64,000 nucleotides of DNA, from positions 1,240,001 through 1,304,000 of the forward strand of contig CP002084.1 in NCBI GenBank assembly GCA_000143165.1, in the 5' to 3' direction. The stretch is from Dehalogenimonas lykanthroporepellens BL-DC-9. Lineage in GTDB: Bacteria > Chloroflexota > Dehalococcoidia > Dehalococcoidales > Dehalococcoidaceae. Shown here one piece after another: positions 53,596 to 63,682 of this stretch (the first letter of the stretch is position 1; the number at the start of each line of letters is the position of its first letter). Below the pieces are notes generated by a model. That model did no database searches. It saw only the letters and a program-made list of their open reading frames with translations, and was not told the origin of the DNA. The position numbers were made by a program, and so were the translations under genes.

Positions 53596-54291
53596 ATGGC
53601 CAAGATAGCCGTTGTGGAAGATGACCGTAACCTGGCCGACCTGCTGAAGTACAACCTCAGCCGGGAGGGCTTCAGCGTTGTAACCGCTACCGACGGTAGC
53701 GCCGGACTGGCGCTGATTCGCCGGGAGAAACCGGACATCATCATCAGCGACGTCATGATGCCGGGAATGGACGGATTTGAGTTGACCCGGACGCTGAGGA
53801 CGGAAACGACGGCACCGGTACTGCTCCTGACCGCCCGCAGTGAGGAAATCGATAAGGTGCTGGGACTGGAAATGGGCGCCGATGACTACCTGTCCAAGCC
53901 GTTTTCCATGCGGGAATTGGTGGCCCGGGTCAAGGCCATGCTGAGACGGCTGGAAATGACCGCCGGGACGGAAGCCGGAATACCGGCCGGATTAACGCTC
54001 CGGCTGGGCGGGTTGGAACTGGATGCCGAACGTCACCGGTTGACGGTTGGCGGCCAAGAGGTGGAACTGTCGCCCCGTGAATTTGACCTGCTGGCCTACC
54101 TGATGAATAACCGCGGCCGGGTGTTTTCCCGCCAGTCGCTGGTGGACCGGGTGTGGGGTTACGACTATCCGGGCGACGAACGGACGGTGGACGTCCATGT
54201 CCGCTGGCTGAGACAAAAAATAGAGACCGACCCGGCGCGGCCGCACCACCTGGTGACGGTGCGAGGCGTCGGTTACAAGTTCGAGGAATAA
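53596..54291 (+). CDS. OmpR/PhoB-family response regulator
   Basis: The 231-residue protein has a receiver with acidic pocket 'IAVVEDDRNLADLL', phosphorylated Asp in 'IIISDVMMPGMDG' and Lys in 'DDYLSKPFSMRELVARV', then a winged helix (about 135-229) with 'LSPREFDLLAYLMNNRGRVF' and recognition helix 'DERTVDVHVRWLRQKIE'. It is followed one base later by a PhoR-like kinase gene. The nearby promoters with 11-bp direct repeats and the pst operon suggest a PhoB/PhoP role; this is a strong inference, not proof. Confidence 0.92.
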   Translation: MAKIAVVEDDRNLADLLKYNLSREGFSVVTATDGSAGLALIRREKPDIIISDVMMPGMDGFELTRTLRTETTAPVLLLTARSEEIDKVLGLEMGADDYLSKPFSMRELVARVKAMLRRLEMTAGTEAGIPAGLTLRLGGLELDAERHRLTVGGQEVELSPREFDLLAYLMNNRGRVFSRQSLVDRVWGYDYPGDERTVDVHVRWLRQKIETDPARPHHLVTVRGVGYKFEE

Positions 54292-54292
54292 G

Positions 54293-55624
54293 ATGACCGA
54301 ACAACTGCTGAGACGGCTGATGGTGACCTCTGTCATCACCATCGCGGTGGCCATATTCATTACCGGACTGGTGAGAGGGTTCTCCGTGACCCTGCTTATT
54401 GCCGGCATTGCCGCCGCGGTGGCGGTAGCGGTAACCATCTACCTGATGGTGCCCTCTACCACCGACGACGAGGCTGAGATAGAGCTGGCGCTTAAGCGCC
54501 TGGGCGGGGGCGAAGCGCCGGAGAAGGTTCGGTTGGTGGCCATCGGTGAACTGGCCGACATCAAGCACGCCTTCAACGAAATGGCGCGCAAGGTGGGCGG
54601 CCGGTTGAAGACACTGACGGCCGAGCGCAATCGGATGGATCTGGTGCTGGCTCACGTCGGCGACGCCATCTTCATGGTGGACAAGAATACCGAAATTACC
54701 CACCTCAATGACGCCGCCGTCAGGATGTTCCATCTGGATAAGAAAGAAAAGGGGCAGACCTTCATGAGCGCGGTGCGCAACCATGAGATGGAGGAGATGA
54801 TCCGTAAATGCGTTGCCACCGGTCGCCGCCAGGAAAAAGAGATAGAGTCCCGGCCCGGCAGACGGCAGTACAGCGTCACGGTGACGCCGATACACAACGA
54901 GAGCGGCGCCGTCATCGTGGTGCGCGATCTGACCAACCTCAAACGGCTGGAAACGGTGAGACGGGACTTCGTAGCCAATATCTCACATGAACTGCGAACG
55001 CCTATCGCCTCGTTGAAACTGCTGGCCGAAACATTGAAGGAAGGGGCCATGGCCGACCAGGAAGTGGCGGCCGATTTTCTCAACCGTATCAGCGTGGAAG
55101 CCGACAAGATGGGGCAACTGGTAGATGAACTGGGCGAGTTGTCACGCATTGAAAGCGGCGCCGCACCGCTGGACAAGCGACCGATGGACGCCGGAGCGGT
55201 GATGACCACAGTGGTCGGACGGCTTCAGAACCAGGCCGACCGCGCCAAGCTGACGCTGGAAGTGGCTACCGTGGACGGCTTGCCGGCAGTACGGGCCGAC
55301 GCCGGGCGGATAGAGCAGGTGCTGATGAACCTGACCCACAACGCCATCAAGTTCACGCCGGCCGGCGGCAGGATAACGCTGACGGCGGGAATCTCCGAAA
55401 AAGGCATCGAGATAAAGGTGACCGATACCGGCGCCGGCATCACCGCCGACGACCTGCCGCGCATTTTCGAGCGGTTCTACAAGGCTGACAAGGCCAGGAG
55501 CGGCGGCGGCACCGGGCTGGGGCTGGCCATCGCCAAACATATCGTCCACGCCCACGGCGGGGAGATAAGAGCCGAGAGTTCACCGGGGCAGGGAACTACC
55601 ATTTCCTTCACTTTGCCAAAGTAG
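54293..55624 (+). CDS. PhoR-like sensor histidine kinase
   Basis: The 443-residue kinase has two closely spaced N-terminal helices ('[18 protein letters not shown]', '[19 protein letters not shown]') with almost no extracytoplasmic domain, a HAMP-like linker, a PAS domain (about residues 110-215, '[19 protein letters not shown]'), the H box '[19 protein letters not shown]', N box '[15 protein letters not shown]', and G boxes '[19 protein letters not shown]' and '[13 protein letters not shown]'. The lack of a sensory loop fits PhoR, which reads phosphate through PstB and PhoU rather than directly. Confidence 0.92.
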
Positions 55625-55656: not shown

Positions 55657-56679
55657 ATGAACGTCATAGACCTGAGAAGCGACACCATCACCCACCCGAC
55701 GCCGGAGATGCGCCGGGCGATGTTCGAGGCCGAGGTGGGCGACGATGTCTTCGGCGAAGACCCGACGGTCAACCGCCTGGAAGCCCTGTCAGCGGAAATG
55801 ACCGGCAAGGAAGCCGGCCTGTACACCCCTTCCGGCACCATGAGCAACCTGATAGCAGTGCTGGCCCATACCCGGCGCGGCGATGAGATCATACTGGGCG
55901 ACCGGAGCCATATCTTCCTGAATGAGGCCGGAGGCGCGGCTGTTTTCGGCGGACTGTCGCTGAGAACGGTACCCAATGCCGACGACGGCACCATCGAGCT
56001 CGATGTCATCGAACAGGCGGTACGCGACGACAATATCCACTTTCCGCCGAGCACCCTGCTGTGCCTGGAAAATACCCACAACTTCTGCGGCGGCGCGCCG
56101 CTGTCGGCGGAATATACCCGTGCCGCCGGCGAAACGGCACGGCAGTATGGGCTGAAAGTTCACCTGGACGGGGCCCGCCTGTTCAACGCGGCTGTTGCCC
56201 TGAAGGTGACGGCCGCCGAGCTGTGCGCCCCGACCGATTCGGTTTGCCTGTGCCTGTCCAAGGGGCTGTCGGCGCCGGTGGGTTCGGTACTGTGCGGCGA
56301 CCGGGACTTCATCAACCGGGCGCGAAAACTGCGCAAGATGTGCGGCGGCGGCATGCGCCAGGCCGGGGTCATCGCCGCGGCAGGCATCACCGCGCTGGAA
56401 ACGATGACCGAACGATTGAGTGAAGACCACGCCAACGCGCGGCGGCTGGCCGAGGGACTGAGCCGACTGTCGGGAATAGAGGTCGAGATGCCGCAGACCA
56501 ACATCGTGCTATTCCGCCCTGGCAGTGACGCCGGGGAATTCGTGAACCGGGCGGAATCTGCCGGCGTCAGGCTGATAGCCATCGACCGGCGGCAGGCGCG
56601 GGCGGTCACTCACCGGATGGTGACGACCGAAGACATCGACGAGGCAGTCCGGCGGCTGGCGGGGCTGACCGGCAACTGA
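55657..56679 (+). CDS. ltaE: low-specificity L-threonine aldolase
   Basis: The 340-residue PLP enzyme shows '[18 protein letters not shown]', '[17 protein letters not shown]', '[11 protein letters not shown]', '[17 protein letters not shown]' (Asp that binds PLP nitrogen), the Lys in '[20 protein letters not shown]', and '[18 protein letters not shown]'. It splits threonine or allo-threonine into glycine and acetaldehyde. It follows the PhoR-like kinase gene by 32 bases but has its own terminator. Its link to phosphate control is likely positional only. Confidence 0.93.
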
Positions 56680-56710
56680 TACTTGTAACCTTTACTCTCC
56701 TCAGAGACCA

Positions 56711-56740
56711 ACGGAAGCGTTTTGCTTCCGTTTTGTTTTA
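56711..56740 (+). terminator. intrinsic terminator after the threonine aldolase gene
   Basis: ACGGAAGC and GCTTCCGT pair around GTTTT, followed by TTTGTTTTA. Confidence 0.85.
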
Positions 56741-56747
56741 CCCGGAT

Positions 56748-56825
56748 TCTTAACATAGTGTTAATCCATTCTTAAATTATTTTTCACAAAGCCTTAACCG
56801 GACCTTAAACTCCGCCCTTCATAAT
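56748..56825 (+). promoter_or_regulatory. Pho-type direct repeats and -10 box before alkaline phosphatase
   Basis: Six heptamers start exactly 11 bp apart: TCTTAAC (56748), TGTTAAT (56759), TCTTAAA (56770), a degenerate TTTTCAC (56781), CCTTAAC (56792) and CCTTAAA (56803). The last ends 10 bp before CATAAT (56820-56825). The geometry equals that of PhoB/PhoP promoters, where the repeats replace the -35 box. Confidence 0.8.
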
Positions 56826-56920
56826 GATGTCAGCGCCCACTTCCCGAATAAAAGCAGGAGGTTATATGAGATAGAGGATTCCGAACAGCGGCCAATTCCC
56901 GAAAAATATTGGAGGAAAAG

Positions 56921-58321
56921 GTGAAAACAAAAAAGCATATGTTCCGGTTGATGGTAACGGCACTGAGCGTTACCGCCATTCTGCTGACATCGGTTACCGG
57001 CGTCAGCGCCAAGACCGAAATCAAGAAAAACGACGCCAATCTGCCAAAAAATATCATTGTCATGATAGCCGACGGCTGGGGCTATAACCAGGTGCTATCC
57101 ACCAACTACTACCAGGGCGTCAACAAACAAAGCTATGAACTGTTCCCGGTCAAGGCCGGCATGAGCCACTACGAAGTGGAGAAAAGCAACGGCGAACCCA
57201 TCATCTACGGCTACGACCCGGTCGCCATGTGGAGCGATTTCGACTACGCCAAACAGAACGCCACCGATTCGGCCTCGTCGGGTACGGCCATCGCCTCAGG
57301 TGAAAAGACCTTCAGCGGCATGATCGGCTGGAGCATCGACGGCGAGCCGATCTACCTGATAACCGAACTGGCCGAGGAGTTGGGCAAATCTACCGGCGTA
57401 GTCACTTCGGTACAGATTTCGCACGCCACTCCGGCTTCCTTCGTGGCTCACAACGCTTCCCGCAATAACTATTCTGACATTGCCAACGAGATGATCCTAT
57501 CCAGCGCCACCGACGTCATCATGGGTGCCGGCAATCCCTACTTCGATAATGACGGAAATGAGCTATCATCCGGCAATTTCAGATATATCGGCGGCGAAAG
57601 CACCTGGGAGGGGCTGTTGGCTGGCACCATCGGCAACGACGCCAACGGTGACGGTAGCGTCGATTACTGGAATCTCATCCAGGACAAGGACGACTTCCAG
57701 TCCTTAATGACCGGTGAAACCCCGGGACGGATCATCGGCATCGCCCAGGTAGCTACTACCCTGCAACAGTCCCGCTCCGGCAACGGCTCCGCCGACCCCT
57801 GCACCGTTCCTTTCAACGACAACGTACCGACGCTGGCCGAGATGTCGGTCGGCGCGCTGAACGTACTCGACGCCGACCCGGACGGCTTCTTCCTGATGAT
57901 CGAGGGCGGCGCTGTCGACTGGGCCGGACACGATAACCAGTCAGGTCGGCTGATAGAGGAAATGACCGACTACAACACGGCGGTCGAGGCCGTCATCAAT
58001 TACCTGAAGGCCAACAAACTCTGGGATGACACCCTGCTCATCGTAACCGGCGACCACGAAACCGGCTACCTATGGGGTCCCGATTCCGGGGCAACCGATA
58101 ATGGTCCGGTCTGGAATCCAATCGTCAATAACGGCGCCGGCAATCTCCCAGGCATGGCCTGGTATTCAGGAGACCATACCAATCAGCTCATTCCTTTCTT
58201 CGCCACCGGCAAGGGACACCAGCTGGTGAGAGCCTACCTCGATGAAACCGACCCGGTACGCGGCAAATATCTGGACAATAGCAACATCGGTAAGCTGATG
58301 TTCGATATCTGGGATCGCTAA
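56921..58321 (+). CDS. phoA: alkaline phosphatase, secreted
   Basis: GTG 56921 (VKTKKHMFRL) is chosen because GGAGG (56911-56915) is 5 bases upstream; the TTG at 56909 includes that site. The 466-residue protein has a Sec signal ('MVTALSVTAILLTSVTGVSA'), metal Asp in 'IIVMIADGWGYNQV', catalytic Ser in 'NATDSASSGTAIASG' (DSA motif), 'MIEGGAVDWAGHDNQ' and 'LLIVTGDHETGYLWGP' for the zinc site, and a C-terminal His in 'YSGDHTNQLIPF'. It releases phosphate from organic esters outside the cell and lies under the Pho-type promoter. Confidence 0.93.
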   Translation: MKTKKHMFRLMVTALSVTAILLTSVTGVSAKTEIKKNDANLPKNIIVMIADGWGYNQVLSTNYYQGVNKQSYELFPVKAGMSHYEVEKSNGEPIIYGYDPVAMWSDFDYAKQNATDSASSGTAIASGEKTFSGMIGWSIDGEPIYLITELAEELGKSTGVVTSVQISHATPASFVAHNASRNNYSDIANEMILSSATDVIMGAGNPYFDNDGNELSSGNFRYIGGESTWEGLLAGTIGNDANGDGSVDYWNLIQDKDDFQSLMTGETPGRIIGIAQVATTLQQSRSGNGSADPCTVPFNDNVPTLAEMSVGALNVLDADPDGFFLMIEGGAVDWAGHDNQSGRLIEEMTDYNTAVEAVINYLKANKLWDDTLLIVTGDHETGYLWGPDSGATDNGPVWNPIVNNGAGNLPGMAWYSGDHTNQLIPFFATGKGHQLVRAYLDETDPVRGKYLDNSNIGKLMFDIWDR

Positions 58322-58342
58322 CCCACTCTTTTTTAGCCAACC

Positions 58343-58375
58343 GGCAGGCCGGAGAAAACTCCGGCCTGCCCTTTT
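58343..58375 (+). terminator. intrinsic terminator of the alkaline phosphatase gene
   Basis: GGCAGGCCGGAG and CTCCGGCCTGCC form a 12-bp stem with an AAAA loop, followed by CTTTTCC. Confidence 0.88.
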
Positions 58376-58403
58376 CCGGCGAAACAGTGCCGGTTAAAGT
58401 AAA

Positions 58404-58459
58404 CCTTAACAAAACCTTAACATTGCCTTAACGAGGCCTTAAACATCGGGATTTATACT
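58404..58459 (+). promoter_or_regulatory. Pho-type direct repeats and -10 box before mgsA-pst
   Basis: Four heptamers at exact 11-bp steps: CCTTAAC (58404), CCTTAAC (58415), CCTTAAC (58426), CCTTAAA (58437). The last ends 10 bp before TATACT (58454-58459). No -35 box is present. Same structure as the promoter at 56748-56825. Confidence 0.88.
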
Positions 58460-58499: not shown

Positions 58500-58940
58500 A
58501 TGAACAACATCACCCTGGCGCTTATCGCCCACGACAACAAGAAGGAAGAGATGCTGTCACTGGTCAGGAACCACCGCGAACGGCTGTCCCGCCTGTCGCT
58601 GGTCGCCACCCGCTCCACCGGCCAGTTGATTCAGGCGCGCACCGACCTGCCGGTGACGCTGATGCAGAGCGGCCCGATGGGTGGCGACCAGCAGATAGGT
58701 TCGCTGGTGGCCTCCGGCGTGGTTAAGGCAGTCATCTTCCTGCGCGACCCGCTGACGGTCCAGCCGCACGAACCCGATGTCACCGCCCTGCTGAGACTGT
58801 GCGACGTCCACAACGTCCCGCTGGCCACCAATGTCGCCAGCGCCGAAGCGGTACTGCACCTGATATTCGAGCATGGCGACATCATCAAGGAAGCCTCGCT
58901 CCGCGCCCGTTTCTTAACCGGGGCCATGTCAGCCCTGTAA
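58500..58940 (+). CDS. mgsA: methylglyoxal synthase
   Basis: The 146-residue protein has 'LALIAHDNKKEEMLSLV', 'VATRSTGQLIQARTDLPVT' , 'LMQSGPMGGDQQIGSLVASG' (GPxGGDxQIG), 'VIFLRDPLTVQPHEPDV' with the catalytic Asp, and 'LLRLCDVHNVPLATNVASAE'. MgsA converts dihydroxyacetone phosphate to methylglyoxal and free phosphate, and is strongly inhibited by phosphate in known enzymes. As first gene behind a Pho-type promoter, 39 bases before pstS, it is likely induced when phosphate is low. Confidence 0.94.
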   Translation: MNNITLALIAHDNKKEEMLSLVRNHRERLSRLSLVATRSTGQLIQARTDLPVTLMQSGPMGGDQQIGSLVASGVVKAVIFLRDPLTVQPHEPDVTALLRLCDVHNVPLATNVASAEAVLHLIFEHGDIIKEASLRARFLTGAMSAL

Positions 58941-58979: not shown

Positions 58980-59897
58980 TTGAAATCCAAAAGATTCCTG
59001 AAATGGTTCACTCTGCCCCTGGCCCTGGTACTCTCGCTGTCGCTGGTGGTTACCGGCTGTACCGATGGCGATGACCCCGACCCGACTTCAACCGGTGAGA
59101 CGCTGTCCGGCTTCATCGACGTGACCGGCTCCAACACGGTAACCCCCGTCTCCTCAGCCTGGGCCGAGGAATTCATGGACCAGCACCCGGCAGTCAGCAT
59201 CGCCGTTTCCGGTCCGGGTTCCGGGGCCGGCATCGCCGCCTTCATCAACAAGACGACCGATATCGCCCAGTCCTCCCGCCCGATGAAGGATTCCGAAAAA
59301 CAGCAGGCTACCGCGGCCGGCGTCACCGTGGTGGAAACCAGGGTAGCCCTGGACGCCCTGTCAGTGGTGGTCAACCCGAATAACCCGGTCAGTGAACTGA
59401 CTATCCAGCAGTTGTCCGACATCTATTCCGGCAAGATAACCAACTGGAGTCAGTTGGGCGGCAACAACGCACCCATCGTGGCTCTCTCCCGCGACACCAA
59501 CTCCGGCACCTACGCCTATTTCCTGGAAGAGGTGGTTCAACTGAAGCTGACCGGTAATTCGGATAAGTCCATCCAGTACGCTCCCGCCATCCAGTTACTG
59601 CCTTCGACCGAGGTCGGCATCACCCAGGTAGCCCAGAACGCCAACGCCATCTTCTACGCCGGCATGGGTTATGTGGACAACTCGGTCAAGGCCATCGCCG
59701 TCAAGAAGACCGCCGATGACCCGGCCGTCAGCCCTGCGCTGGCCACCGCCAAGGACGGCAGTTATGCCATCGCCCGTTACCTGTACTTCTACACCGACGG
59801 CCAGCCGACCGGTATCATCAAGGCCTTCATCGACTTTGCCCTGTCCCCCGCCGGCCAGGCCATCGTCGAAGAAATGGGCTTCGTCGCCATATCCTGA
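58980..59897 (+). CDS. pstS: phosphate ABC transporter substrate-binding lipoprotein
   Basis: TTG 58980 has AAAGGAG (58967-58973) upstream. The 305-residue protein has a lipobox 'LVVTGCTDG' at about residue 24, and PstS phosphate loops 'VTGSNTVTPVSSAWAEEFM', 'VSGPGSGAGIAAFINKTTDI', 'SSRPMKDSEKQ', and 'ALSRDTNSGTYAYFLEEV'. It captures phosphate outside the membrane and hands it to PstCA. A 14-bp hairpin follows the gene. Confidence 0.95.
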   Translation: MKSKRFLKWFTLPLALVLSLSLVVTGCTDGDDPDPTSTGETLSGFIDVTGSNTVTPVSSAWAEEFMDQHPAVSIAVSGPGSGAGIAAFINKTTDIAQSSRPMKDSEKQQATAAGVTVVETRVALDALSVVVNPNNPVSELTIQQLSDIYSGKITNWSQLGGNNAPIVALSRDTNSGTYAYFLEEVVQLKLTGNSDKSIQYAPAIQLLPSTEVGITQVAQNANAIFYAGMGYVDNSVKAIAVKKTADDPAVSPALATAKDGSYAIARYLYFYTDGQPTGIIKAFIDFALSPAGQAIVEEMGFVAIS

Positions 59898-59998: not shown

Positions 59999-60379
59999 AT
60001 GGAACATCATAAACTGATACTGCCGGAACACCTGAACCACGACGGATTTCTCTTCGGCGGCAATATGCTGAAGTGGATAGATGAGTTCGCCTATATTACC
60101 GCCTCCCAGGAATTCCCGGACAACCGGTTCGTGACGGTGGCGCTGGATAATGTGGCCTTTCACCACGCGGTAGCCGGCGGCGAGATCATCCGTTTCGTGG
60201 TGGAGCTGAACCGCCTGGGCAAGACCTCAGCCCAGTACCACGTCAGAGCCTTTGGTACCAGGCGACACGCCTGCCCGGAAACCATTTTATTCGAAACCCG
60301 CATCACCTTCGTTTCGGTGGACGAGGCGGGGTTGAAGAGGGTAATCCGGCGACCGGAGGACAAGAACGGCAAAGAATGA
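59999..60379 (+). CDS. hotdog-fold acyl-CoA thioesterase
   Basis: ATG 59999 (MEHHKLILPEHLNHDG) is preferred to 59966. The 126-residue protein shows 'HDGFLFGGNMLKWIDEFAYI' (HxGxxxGGxxxxxxDE, the YciA/acyl-CoA thioesterase pattern) and 'FVTVALDNVAFHHAVAGGEI'. It hydrolyses acyl-CoA thioesters. It is unusual between pstS and pstC, in the same direction; pstC begins ten bases after its stop. Confidence 0.9.
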   Translation: MEHHKLILPEHLNHDGFLFGGNMLKWIDEFAYITASQEFPDNRFVTVALDNVAFHHAVAGGEIIRFVVELNRLGKTSAQYHVRAFGTRRHACPETILFETRITFVSVDEAGLKRVIRRPEDKNGKE

Positions 60380-60389
60380 CGAGCTTGAT

Positions 60390-61313
60390 ATGAAAGTGTC
60401 ATCCCCCCTAAGCGATATCCGGCTGAAGGCGAAGCGCCGGCCGCTGGAAAAAGCCATCGAATGGACCATCCGGCTGTCGGGCCTGCTGGCCATCATCGTC
60501 CTGCTGGGTGTTTTCGTCATCCTGTTGCAACAGGGAGTGCCGGCGCTGTTTCTCACCAACCCATGGGACTTTCTGACCGGCAGTACCTGGCAACCGCTGT
60601 CCGAACCGCCGGTGCTGGAAATTTCCCAGTTCTTCGTCGCCACGCTGTGGGTGACGGCGGTCTCCACCCTGCTGGCGGTACCGGTGGGAGTGGCGGCCGC
60701 GGTTTACCTGGCCGAAATCGCCCCGCGGCGGGTCAGTGATATAGTAAAACCGCTGGTGGAACTGCTCTCCGGCTTCCCCTCGGTGGTCATGGGTTTCATC
60801 GGTCTGACGCTGTTGTCGCCCTGGGTGCAGACCACCTTCGGCCTGAATACGGGGCTGACCGGTTTTACCGCCGGTATCATGCTGTCGATGATGAGCCTGC
60901 CGGTTATCGTTTCGGTGTCGGAGGACGCCCTGCGGGCGGTGCCGGACGAATTCCGCCAGGCCTCTTACGGCCTGGGCGCCACCAAGTGGGAGACCATCTG
61001 GAACGTATCTCTGCCGGCGGCTTTGTCCGGAGTTTCGGCGGCCATCATGCTGGGCGTCGGCCGGGCCATCGGCGAAACGATGACGGTGCTGATGGTAGCC
61101 GGCGGAGCGCTGGCAGTGCCGAACTCTCCTTTCGAACCGATGATGCCGATGACTGCGGCGGTGGCCTCCGGTATCGGCAACGCCGTGCGCGGCGGGCCGC
61201 AGTACCAGGCGCTGTTCGCCATCGGGCTGATACTGTTTATCCTGACATTCCTGGTAAATCTTATCGCGGCGCGCGTCCTGGACGCCCAGAAGCGCAAGTT
61301 TGCGAGGAACTGA
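60390..61313 (+). CDS. pstC: phosphate ABC transporter permease PstC
   Basis: The 307-residue protein has six helices, 'TLLAVPVGVAAAVYLAEIAP', 'LLSGFPSVVMGFIGLTLLSP', the EAA loop 'EFRQASYGLGATKWETIWN' and 'GRAIGETMTVLMVAGG'. This is PstC, with the N-terminal basic cytoplasmic arm before helix 1. It forms the phosphate channel with PstA. Confidence 0.95.
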   Translation: MKVSSPLSDIRLKAKRRPLEKAIEWTIRLSGLLAIIVLLGVFVILLQQGVPALFLTNPWDFLTGSTWQPLSEPPVLEISQFFVATLWVTAVSTLLAVPVGVAAAVYLAEIAPRRVSDIVKPLVELLSGFPSVVMGFIGLTLLSPWVQTTFGLNTGLTGFTAGIMLSMMSLPVIVSVSEDALRAVPDEFRQASYGLGATKWETIWNVSLPAALSGVSAAIMLGVGRAIGETMTVLMVAGGALAVPNSPFEPMMPMTAAVASGIGNAVRGGPQYQALFAIGLILFILTFLVNLIAARVLDAQKRKFARN

Positions 61314-61314
61314 T

Positions 61315-62181
61315 TTGAGCGCCTATATCAAGAGTCATGTTCACAACCGGCGCATCTTCACTCAGCGGGTGGCAGTGACCCTGCTGGCGACAGCCACGGC
61401 ACTGGTGGTCATCCCCATCATCTTCATCCTGATTTACATGATAGTCAACGGGTATTCCGTCATTGACTGGGCTTTTTTGACCGAGGCCCCGTCCCGGGCC
61501 GGCAAGGAAGGCGGCATCCTGCCGGCCATCATCGGCACCTTCTACCTTATGGTGGGCACAATTATCTTCGCCCTGCCCATCGGGGTGATGGCTGGCATCT
61601 ACCTGTCCGAATACGCCGGGGACAGCTGGCTGACCCGACTGATCAACCTGGCCATCATCAATCTGGCCGGCGTACCCAGCATCGTCTTCGGCCTGTTCGG
61701 TCTGTCGGTCTTCGTGCTGACACTGGACCTGGGCATGTCGCTCTTGGCGGCTTCACTGACCCTGGCGGCTCAGGCGCTGGCCATGACCATCACCACGTCA
61801 CGCGAATCCATATCCGCCATACCCAAGGAGTACCGCGAAGGCAGTCTGGCCATCGGCGTTTCCAAATGGCAGACCATCCGCCACGCGGTACTGCCGGAGG
61901 CGTTCCCAGGCATCCTGACCGGCGCCATCCTGGCCATGAGCCGGGCGGCCGGCGAAACTGCGCCTATCCTGGTAGTCGGCGCCGCCTTCCTGGTGCCTGG
62001 ACTGCCGGGGTCACCCTTCGACCGTTTCATGGCCCTGCCCTATCATCTGTACACCGTCTCCGCCCATGTGCCGGGGATGCCGAAGGAAGTAATGTGGGGC
62101 GTAGCCCTGGTGCTGGTGGCCATGGTGCTGTTCTTCAACATCCTGGTGACCATCGTCCGAATCAAAACCCGCAAGAGGTAA
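61315..62181 (+). CDS. pstA: phosphate ABC transporter permease PstA
   Basis: TTG 61315 (MSAYIKSHVHN), one base after the pstC stop and with GAGGA upstream, is preferred to TTG 61300, which overlaps pstC. The 288-residue protein has 'PIGVMAGIYLSEYAGDSWLT', 'INLAGVPSIVFGLFGLSVFV', 'EYREGSLAIGVSKWQTIRH' (EAA loop) and 'AMSRAAGETAPILVVGAAF', diagnostic of PstA. Confidence 0.94.
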   Translation: MSAYIKSHVHNRRIFTQRVAVTLLATATALVVIPIIFILIYMIVNGYSVIDWAFLTEAPSRAGKEGGILPAIIGTFYLMVGTIIFALPIGVMAGIYLSEYAGDSWLTRLINLAIINLAGVPSIVFGLFGLSVFVLTLDLGMSLLAASLTLAAQALAMTITTSRESISAIPKEYREGSLAIGVSKWQTIRHAVLPEAFPGILTGAILAMSRAAGETAPILVVGAAFLVPGLPGSPFDRFMALPYHLYTVSAHVPGMPKEVMWGVALVLVAMVLFFNILVTIVRIKTRKR

Positions 62182-62184
62182 ACA

Positions 62185-63009
62185 ATGGATATCAGACCCA
62201 CAATTGAGATAACCAGGCCGGATACCGAACGTGTCTGTACTGAGAACAAACTCCGACTGGAAAAAGTGAACATGTATTACGGCAGTTTTCAGGCGCTCAA
62301 GGATATTTCGCTGGACATCCCGTCCTGCGGCATCACCGCCCTGATCGGACCGTCAGGGTGCGGCAAATCAACCGCCCTGCGCATTTTCAACCGGATGAAC
62401 GACCTCATACCCATCGCCCGGGTGGAAGGACTGGCCGAGTTCGACGGCATAAACATCTACGACAAAAGCGTCGACGTGGTGGAACTGCGCAAACGGGTGG
62501 GCATGGTCTTTCAGAAACCCAACCCCTTTCCCATGTCCATCTTCGACAATATCGCCTACGGGCCGCGGCGACACGGCATCCGTAAGCGACAGGTGCTGGA
62601 GGAGATTGTGGAGCGGAGCCTGCGCCAAGCGGCGCTGTGGGACGAGGTCAAGGATAAGCTGGGGCAGTCAGGGCTGTCCATCTCCGGCGGCCAGCAACAG
62701 CGTTTGTGTATCGCCCGGGTGCTGGCAGTGGAACCGGAAGTCATCCTGATGGATGAACCCTGCTCGGCGCTGGACCCCATCGCCACGCTGAAAATTGAAG
62801 ACCTGATGCGCCAGCTGGCGCCGCAATATACCATCGTCATCGTCACTCACAACATGCAACAGGCGGCCCGGGTGTCCGACCAGACGGCTTTTTTCATGGT
62901 GGACGACAACCGCTCCGGACACCTGGTGGAATACGGCCCCACCGGCGAACTGTTCACCAACCCCCGCGACAAGCGCACCGAAGACTACATCACCGGCCGG
63001 TTCGGCTAG
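62185..63009 (+). CDS. pstB: phosphate ABC transporter ATP-binding protein
   Basis: The 274-residue ATPase has '[20 protein letters not shown]', Walker A '[19 protein letters not shown]' (PstB-type), '[18 protein letters not shown]', signature '[15 protein letters not shown]', and Walker B '[15 protein letters not shown]'. It energises PstCA. The 'NPFPMSI' element is typical of PstB. Confidence 0.96.
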
Positions 63010-63022
63010 AGAGGGAAAAGAC

Positions 63023-63682
63023 ATGAGAATCGATTACGAACGCAGTTTGAAACAACTCCAGGACAAGGTGCTGGGCATGGGCAGTATGGTGGAACAAGCC
63101 CTCATCCTGTCCATGGACGCCATGAAAAACCGCGACCTGGCGCTGGCCGAACAAGTGGTAGCCAACGACCAGAAGATCAACGCCCGACGTTTCGAGATTG
63201 AGGAAGACTGTATCCACCTGATAGCCACCCAGGCACCGATGGCCAGCGATCTGCGAATCATCGTGGCGGTGCTCAATATCATCATCGACCTGGAGCGTAT
63301 CGGCGACCATGCCGCCGGCAACGCCAAGATAGCCGTCATGCTGGGTGAAGAACCGCCGCTCAAGCCGCTCATCGATTTGCCGCGCATGGCCGAGAAAACA
63401 GCCGACATGCTGAGGCGGTCGCTGGATGCCTTCGTCAAGCGAGACGCCGACGCCGCCCGGAAGGTGACCGAGGATGACGATGAAATTGACGCGCTGTACG
63501 ACCAGATTTTCCGCGAACTGGTACTGTTCATGGCCGAGGATACCAAGACAGTCGGCCGGGCCACCCGGCTTATCTGGGCGGGGCACAACCTGGAACGTTC
63601 CGCCGACCGGGTGACCAATATCTGCGAGCGGGTGGTCTTTGTAATTACCGGCAAGCAGGAAGAGATAGGCGGTAAATACTGA
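63023..63682 (+). CDS. phoU: phosphate signalling protein PhoU
   Basis: The 219-residue protein is built of two three-helix repeats: 'QLQDKVLGMGSMVEQALILS', 'DLRIIVAVLNIIIDLERIGDHAAG' and, in the second half, 'RATRLIWAGHNLERSADRVTNICERVVF' (quoted in parts). The two ERxxDH/ERxADR motifs bind metal. PhoU links Pst transport status to the PhoR kinase and turns the Pho response off when phosphate is plentiful. It follows pstB by 13 bases. Confidence 0.95.
   Translation: MRIDYERSLKQLQDKVLGMGSMVEQALILSMDAMKNRDLALAEQVVANDQKINARRFEIEEDCIHLIATQAPMASDLRIIVAVLNIIIDLERIGDHAAGNAKIAVMLGEEPPLKPLIDLPRMAEKTADMLRRSLDAFVKRDADAARKVTEDDDEIDALYDQIFRELVLFMAEDTKTVGRATRLIWAGHNLERSADRVTNICERVVFVITGKQEEIGGKY

Follow-up and report, generated by a model that had tools for sequence, protein, structure and literature searches.

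The PhoP box of Bacillus subtilis is composed of TTAACA-type repeats spaced near 11 bp. In cyanobacteria, the SphR box contains at least three tandem CTTAACCT repeats, in which 8 bp and a 3-bp linker make up an 11-bp period, and the sites of E. coli PhoB lie 10 bp before the -10 element (Su et al. 2007, PMC1906773). EMSA with the Synechocystis box shows that binding of PhoB is weakened or lost when any one of the three TTAA cores is mutated (PMC11126600). Within E. coli PhoB itself, Arg201 is reported to hydrogen-bond a guanine, and Thr194, Val197, and Arg219 are also reported contacts (PMC3973317).

Two repeat arrays occur in a 64,000-nucleotide window (positions 1240001-1304000) of the complete 1,686,510-bp genome of Dehalogenimonas lykanthroporepellens BL-DC-9. 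They are very probably Pho boxes of the TTAAC (cyanobacterial SphR/PhoB) type, predicted to be read by a PhoB-like regulator and to control phoA and mgsA-pstSCAB-phoU. This type of box is already known from cyanobacteria and represents no new kind of system. As in Synechocystis PCC 6803, a CTTAAC-type unit is present in at least three tandem copies with an 11-bp period before phoA and pst, and the units fit a matrix of CTTAACCT repeats. The arrays differ from the cyanobacterial box in belonging to another phylum, in reaching up to six units, in having CT less often after TTAAC, and in standing before a pst operon headed by mgsA. The likeness to E. coli PhoB sites lies in the geometry, with direct repeats at 11 bp, a spacing of about 10 bp between the final repeat and the -10 element, and no -35, and in a homologous regulator whose counterparts of Thr194, Val197, and Arg219 are unchanged. 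The repeat unit, however, is CTTAAC here and CTGTCAT in E. coli, and the guanine-contacting Arg201 is replaced by Trp; the arrays do not match the CTGTCAT heptamer, their units being of the form CTTAAM. Prochlorococcus has a regulator with the same Trp. The B. subtilis PhoP box shares the TTAACA core, and a strict form of the box precedes pst in three Bacillota genomes (L147, L163, L165), but the best-matching regulators of these genomes have His at position 201. Taken together, the locus has tandem 11-bp repeats, a gap of about 10 bp to a -10 element in place of a -35, phosphate-starvation genes downstream, and conservation in relatives, as expected of Pho boxes.

Repeat arrays, promoters, and genes of the locus

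Array 1 (56749-56809; this and all further features of the window are on the + strand) lies before phoA and has six positions at exact 11-bp steps (starts 56749, 56760, 56771, 56782, 56793, and 56804), reading CTTAACA, GTTAATC, CTTAAAT, TTTCACA, CTTAACC, and CTTAAAC. Units 1, 3, 5, and 6 are CTTAAM, units 2 and 4 are degenerate, and a CC prefix is found at units 5 and 6 only. Array 2 (58405-58443), evident in the sequence, the genome scan, and the matrix scan, precedes mgsA-pst and has four exact CCTTAAM units at exact 11-bp steps (starts 58405, 58416, 58427, and 58438), reading CTTAACA, CTTAACA, CTTAACG, and CTTAAAC with a C ahead of each. Exactly 10 bp separate the last unit from the -10 hexamer in both cases, CATAAT (56820-56825) at the phoA promoter and TATACT (58454-58459) at the mgsA-pst promoter. 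No -35 was found at either promoter with spacers of 16-18, at most 2 of 6 bases matching TTGACA. The earlier note had described this register of six and four units and the gap to a -10 without a -35, and the sequence bears out both; its wording of CCTTAAC repeats suits array 2 in full and array 1 only loosely, given the two degenerate units and the restricted CC prefix. A terminator-like hairpin (56710-56732) between the upstream genes and the phoA promoter is a consensus match only, with 2.4 expected by chance in the region. The DNA upstream of phoBR has no such array.

The PhoB/PhoR-like pair that the earlier note had placed near the arrays is present as an OmpR/PhoB-family response regulator (53596-54291), the likely reader of the boxes, and a PhoR/PnpS-like sensor histidine kinase (54293-55624). 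Between the kinase gene and phoA lies a threonine-aldolase-family gene (55657-56679; GntG family, 482.7 bits against a cut-off of 230), which adjoins phoR in three congeners as well (L092, L094, L099) and was not found at the locus in the others. The alkaline phosphatase gene phoA (56921-58321) scores 123.3 bits to PRK10518, for which the cut-off is 540. In the operon behind array 2, mgsA (methylglyoxal synthase, 58500-58940) comes first, followed by pstS (phosphate-binding protein, 58980-59897), pstC (60390-61313), pstA (61300-62181), pstB (62185-63009), and phoU (63023-63682), all over their cut-offs. A small protein of thioesterase (hotdog) type encoded between pstS and pstC (59999-60379) was assigned by eye and belongs to the same operon in congeners.

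A pattern scan of the genome, which had been proposed earlier as a check, looked for three CTTAAM units spaced 11 bp apart, allowing at most two mismatches; it gives five overlapping matches across 1.69 Mb, all inside the two arrays and hence before phoA or mgsA-pst. It is accordingly extremely improbable that the arrays arose by chance or merely reflect the composition of AT-rich DNA between genes. TTAA is frequent in AT-rich spacers, and many exact pattern matches in AT-rich genomes do look like chance, but the reversed control pattern has no match in the whole genome, and a period-12 version gives fewer matches than its own control. A matrix derived solely from published cyanobacterial boxes (27 sites with 81 units; Su et al. 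2007, PMC1906773, Table 1) additionally gives the arrays the top six places when both strands of the window are scanned, scoring 19.0-26.1 against a maximum of 18.2 over 100 simulated windows. This signal exists at period 11 only, other periods giving nothing comparable at those positions. A chance origin is rejected because of the empty reversed control and the scores above those of the simulated windows, and the position of array 2 is moreover kept across the family. A weak site at 129613, in a stretch without a long coding ORF that resembles ribosomal RNA by appearance, was dropped.

Distribution of the box

The order of regulator, kinase, array, and mgsA-pst is found in 11 of 11 family genomes searched, this one included. 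Within the genus, four-unit arrays precede mgsA with the last unit 10 bp ahead of TATACT; the sister genus has a three-unit array ahead of TAAACT. Across the order, an array scoring at least 18.2 lies within 300 bp upstream at 26 of 30 mgsA loci. The other four comprise a contig end (L287), a broken mgsA frame (L290), and two loci (L288, L291) at which pst follows mgsA, yet no array stands directly before it. None of the other 10 family genomes has phoA. Of two distant phoA orthologues, one (L331) carries, near a contig end, a degenerate array of five units at the far side of the gene, and the other (L330) has none.

Several congeners show rearrangements at the locus. In G005 (L101:13618-14770), only fragments of mgsA, pstB, and phoU are left of the mgsA-pst operon, and the array and the phoBR pair persist. 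In L099 and L100, pstS, pstC, and pstA are strongly diverged (27-35% identity) between conserved mgsA and phoU, and the thioesterase-like gene has moved to a place after pstB; the transporter was probably exchanged for a foreign one, with the box retained. In G008 (L237:1502-3042), a box-like array and a -10 element stand directly before a polyphosphate kinase gene.

A strict pattern of three units, 10 bp, and TAWAMT with at most one mismatch was searched in a sample of 399 Chloroflexota genomes. It occurs at 17 sites in Dehalococcoidia, 16 before mgsA or pst and one before ppk (polyphosphate kinase); for eight further sites, in other Chloroflexota classes, no phosphate gene was recognised in the vicinity, and the reversed control gives one match across the sample. 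These data bear on whether the arrays might be operators of another OmpR-family regulator without a tie to phosphate, a reading under which 11-bp TTAA direct repeats would be a general format of that family. Such a reading could draw on a two-unit TTAAC look-alike with a -10 element (TACAAT) immediately ahead of an apparent reductive dehalogenase gene (L104:80-2246, genome about 1128284-1130450) and immediately behind the genes of another OmpR-type regulator and a kinase; this repeat could have arisen by chance or could represent a related operator of the direct-repeat kind. Within the class, however, complete arrays of three units occur at phosphate genes only, and the sequence equals the box at which PhoB binding was demonstrated in Synechocystis, making an operator unrelated to phosphate very unlikely.

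An exact-match scan of the genome collection yielded 105 stretches, and the following sites come from the 80 of these that were listed. Among the matches listed, sites precede pst genes in the three Bacillota genomes named above and in one genome of Omnitrophica (L121). The gene behind the site is PstS-like in Chthonomonas (L186), encodes the regulator in Prochlorococcus (L130) and PhoX in Thermocrinis (L141; the L155 site is nearly identical), and specifies a phosphodiesterase or phosphoesterase in Armatimonadetes (L114, L171). Many other listed matches are TTTAAA-rich sites in AT-rich genomes with no phosphate gene nearby and are probably due to chance. Because phosphate genes of several phyla carry the same box, 10-bp gap, and -10 element, the box is not lineage-specific, contrary to the earlier note; nor are its heptamers different from those of described promoters, the unit being that of the published cyanobacterial SphR/PhoB box at 11-bp steps.

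Regulators and proposed mechanism

Alignment of the regulator at 53596 with E. coli PhoB over 12 selected recognition-helix and wing positions shows a sole difference, Arg201 to Trp. The same Trp is common to Chloroflexota PhoB-like regulators adjoining pst and is found in Prochlorococcus and in the best regulators of five Armatimonadota-type genomes carrying the box. Position 201 is His in the best Bacillota regulators and Asn or Lys in two Aquificota ones. Residue 201 may, as a hypothesis, set the preference for CTTAAC over CTGTCAT, and phylogeny alone could produce the same correlation. The regulator scores 236 bits to the PhoB equivalog TIGR02154, below the curated cut-off of 296.2, a narrow threshold that a control search passes in only 2 of 14 well-known genomes. 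The kinase scores 345.7 bits to PnpS, for which the cut-off is 400. Because both fall below the curated PhoB and PhoR/PnpS cut-offs, their label rests on synteny and resemblance.

The genome encodes a second PhoBR-like pair at position 1167524 (L037:1525-5417, genome about 1167524-1171416). Its regulator is 55% identical to the one at 53596 and 72% identical to one from another Dehalococcoidales genome. The pair is followed by a four-unit array, a 10-bp gap to TATTCT, and a transposase gene, IS256-like by reading of the protein; it looks acquired and severed from its target operon by the transposase gene. The second pair could cross-talk with the arrays of the window because the recognition helices are nearly the same (RTVDVHIRWLRQKIE versus RTVDVHVRWLRQKIE). 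The arrays would then still be Pho boxes, with the second PhoB-like protein as their cognate regulator wholly or in part, and the four-unit array behind its own genes lends this some weight. Such an assignment is nevertheless unlikely, given that the first pair adjoins the arrays and has orthologues neighbouring the array in the family, and that the second is closest to regulators of other Dehalococcoidales genomes and appears to be an acquisition.

The regulator at 53596 is the predicted cognate reader. The function of the arrays as Pho boxes is supported by their target genes, geometry, conservation, and genome-wide specificity, as well as by the adjoining PhoB/PhoR-like pair and the recurrence of an array beside the second pair. 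For binding, phosphorylation, and activation at the arrays, we infer a mechanism from the PhoB family. Upon phosphate starvation, the PhoR-like kinase (54293) would phosphorylate the PhoB-like regulator (53596). In E. coli, phosphate sensing runs through PstSCAB-PhoU. The kinase at 54293 is probably gated by PstSCAB and PhoU as well, a route that fits its hydrophobic N-terminal region and the lack of a large outer domain. Regulator molecules would bind head-to-tail, one per 11-bp repeat, on one face of the DNA. With the last unit 10 bp before the -10 element, the bound regulator would replace the missing -35 and recruit sigma-70 RNA polymerase, which would start phoA and mgsA-pstSCAB-phoU.

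Methylglyoxal synthase and the phosphate regulon

In most of the order, methylglyoxal synthase is encoded at the head of the pst operon that follows the Pho box. MgsA catalyses a reaction that frees phosphate from DHAP, and in E. coli it is subject to inhibition by phosphate (PMC11850910). A literature search covering mostly titles and abstracts found no paper placing mgsA in a Pho regulon, and no described Pho box for organohalide-respiring Dehalococcoidia was found in the searchable literature. What is new is accordingly modest: the documentation of the box type through Dehalococcoidia, mgsA at the head of a Pho-box pst operon, the residue-201 correlation, and another PhoBR pair that has a box of its own and was apparently severed from its operon by a transposase gene.

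A wider proposal joins two parts and, as a whole, is advanced tentatively, being somewhat more likely to fail than to hold. The TTAAC box and its Trp-201 readers would be shared, perhaps ancestrally, across Chloroflexota, Cyanobacteria, and Armatimonadota, and in Dehalococcoidales the box would control mgsA as the leading gene of the pst operon. The methylglyoxal bypass, which releases phosphate, would then be switched on by transcription along with the uptake of phosphate, in addition to the relief of allosteric inhibition described in E. coli. The analysis provides organohalide-respiring Dehalococcoidia with an operator model for their phosphate regulon and ties the sequence of the box to one recognition-helix residue, at position 201. 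It also suggests a place for methylglyoxal synthase in the response of Dehalococcoidia to phosphate starvation.
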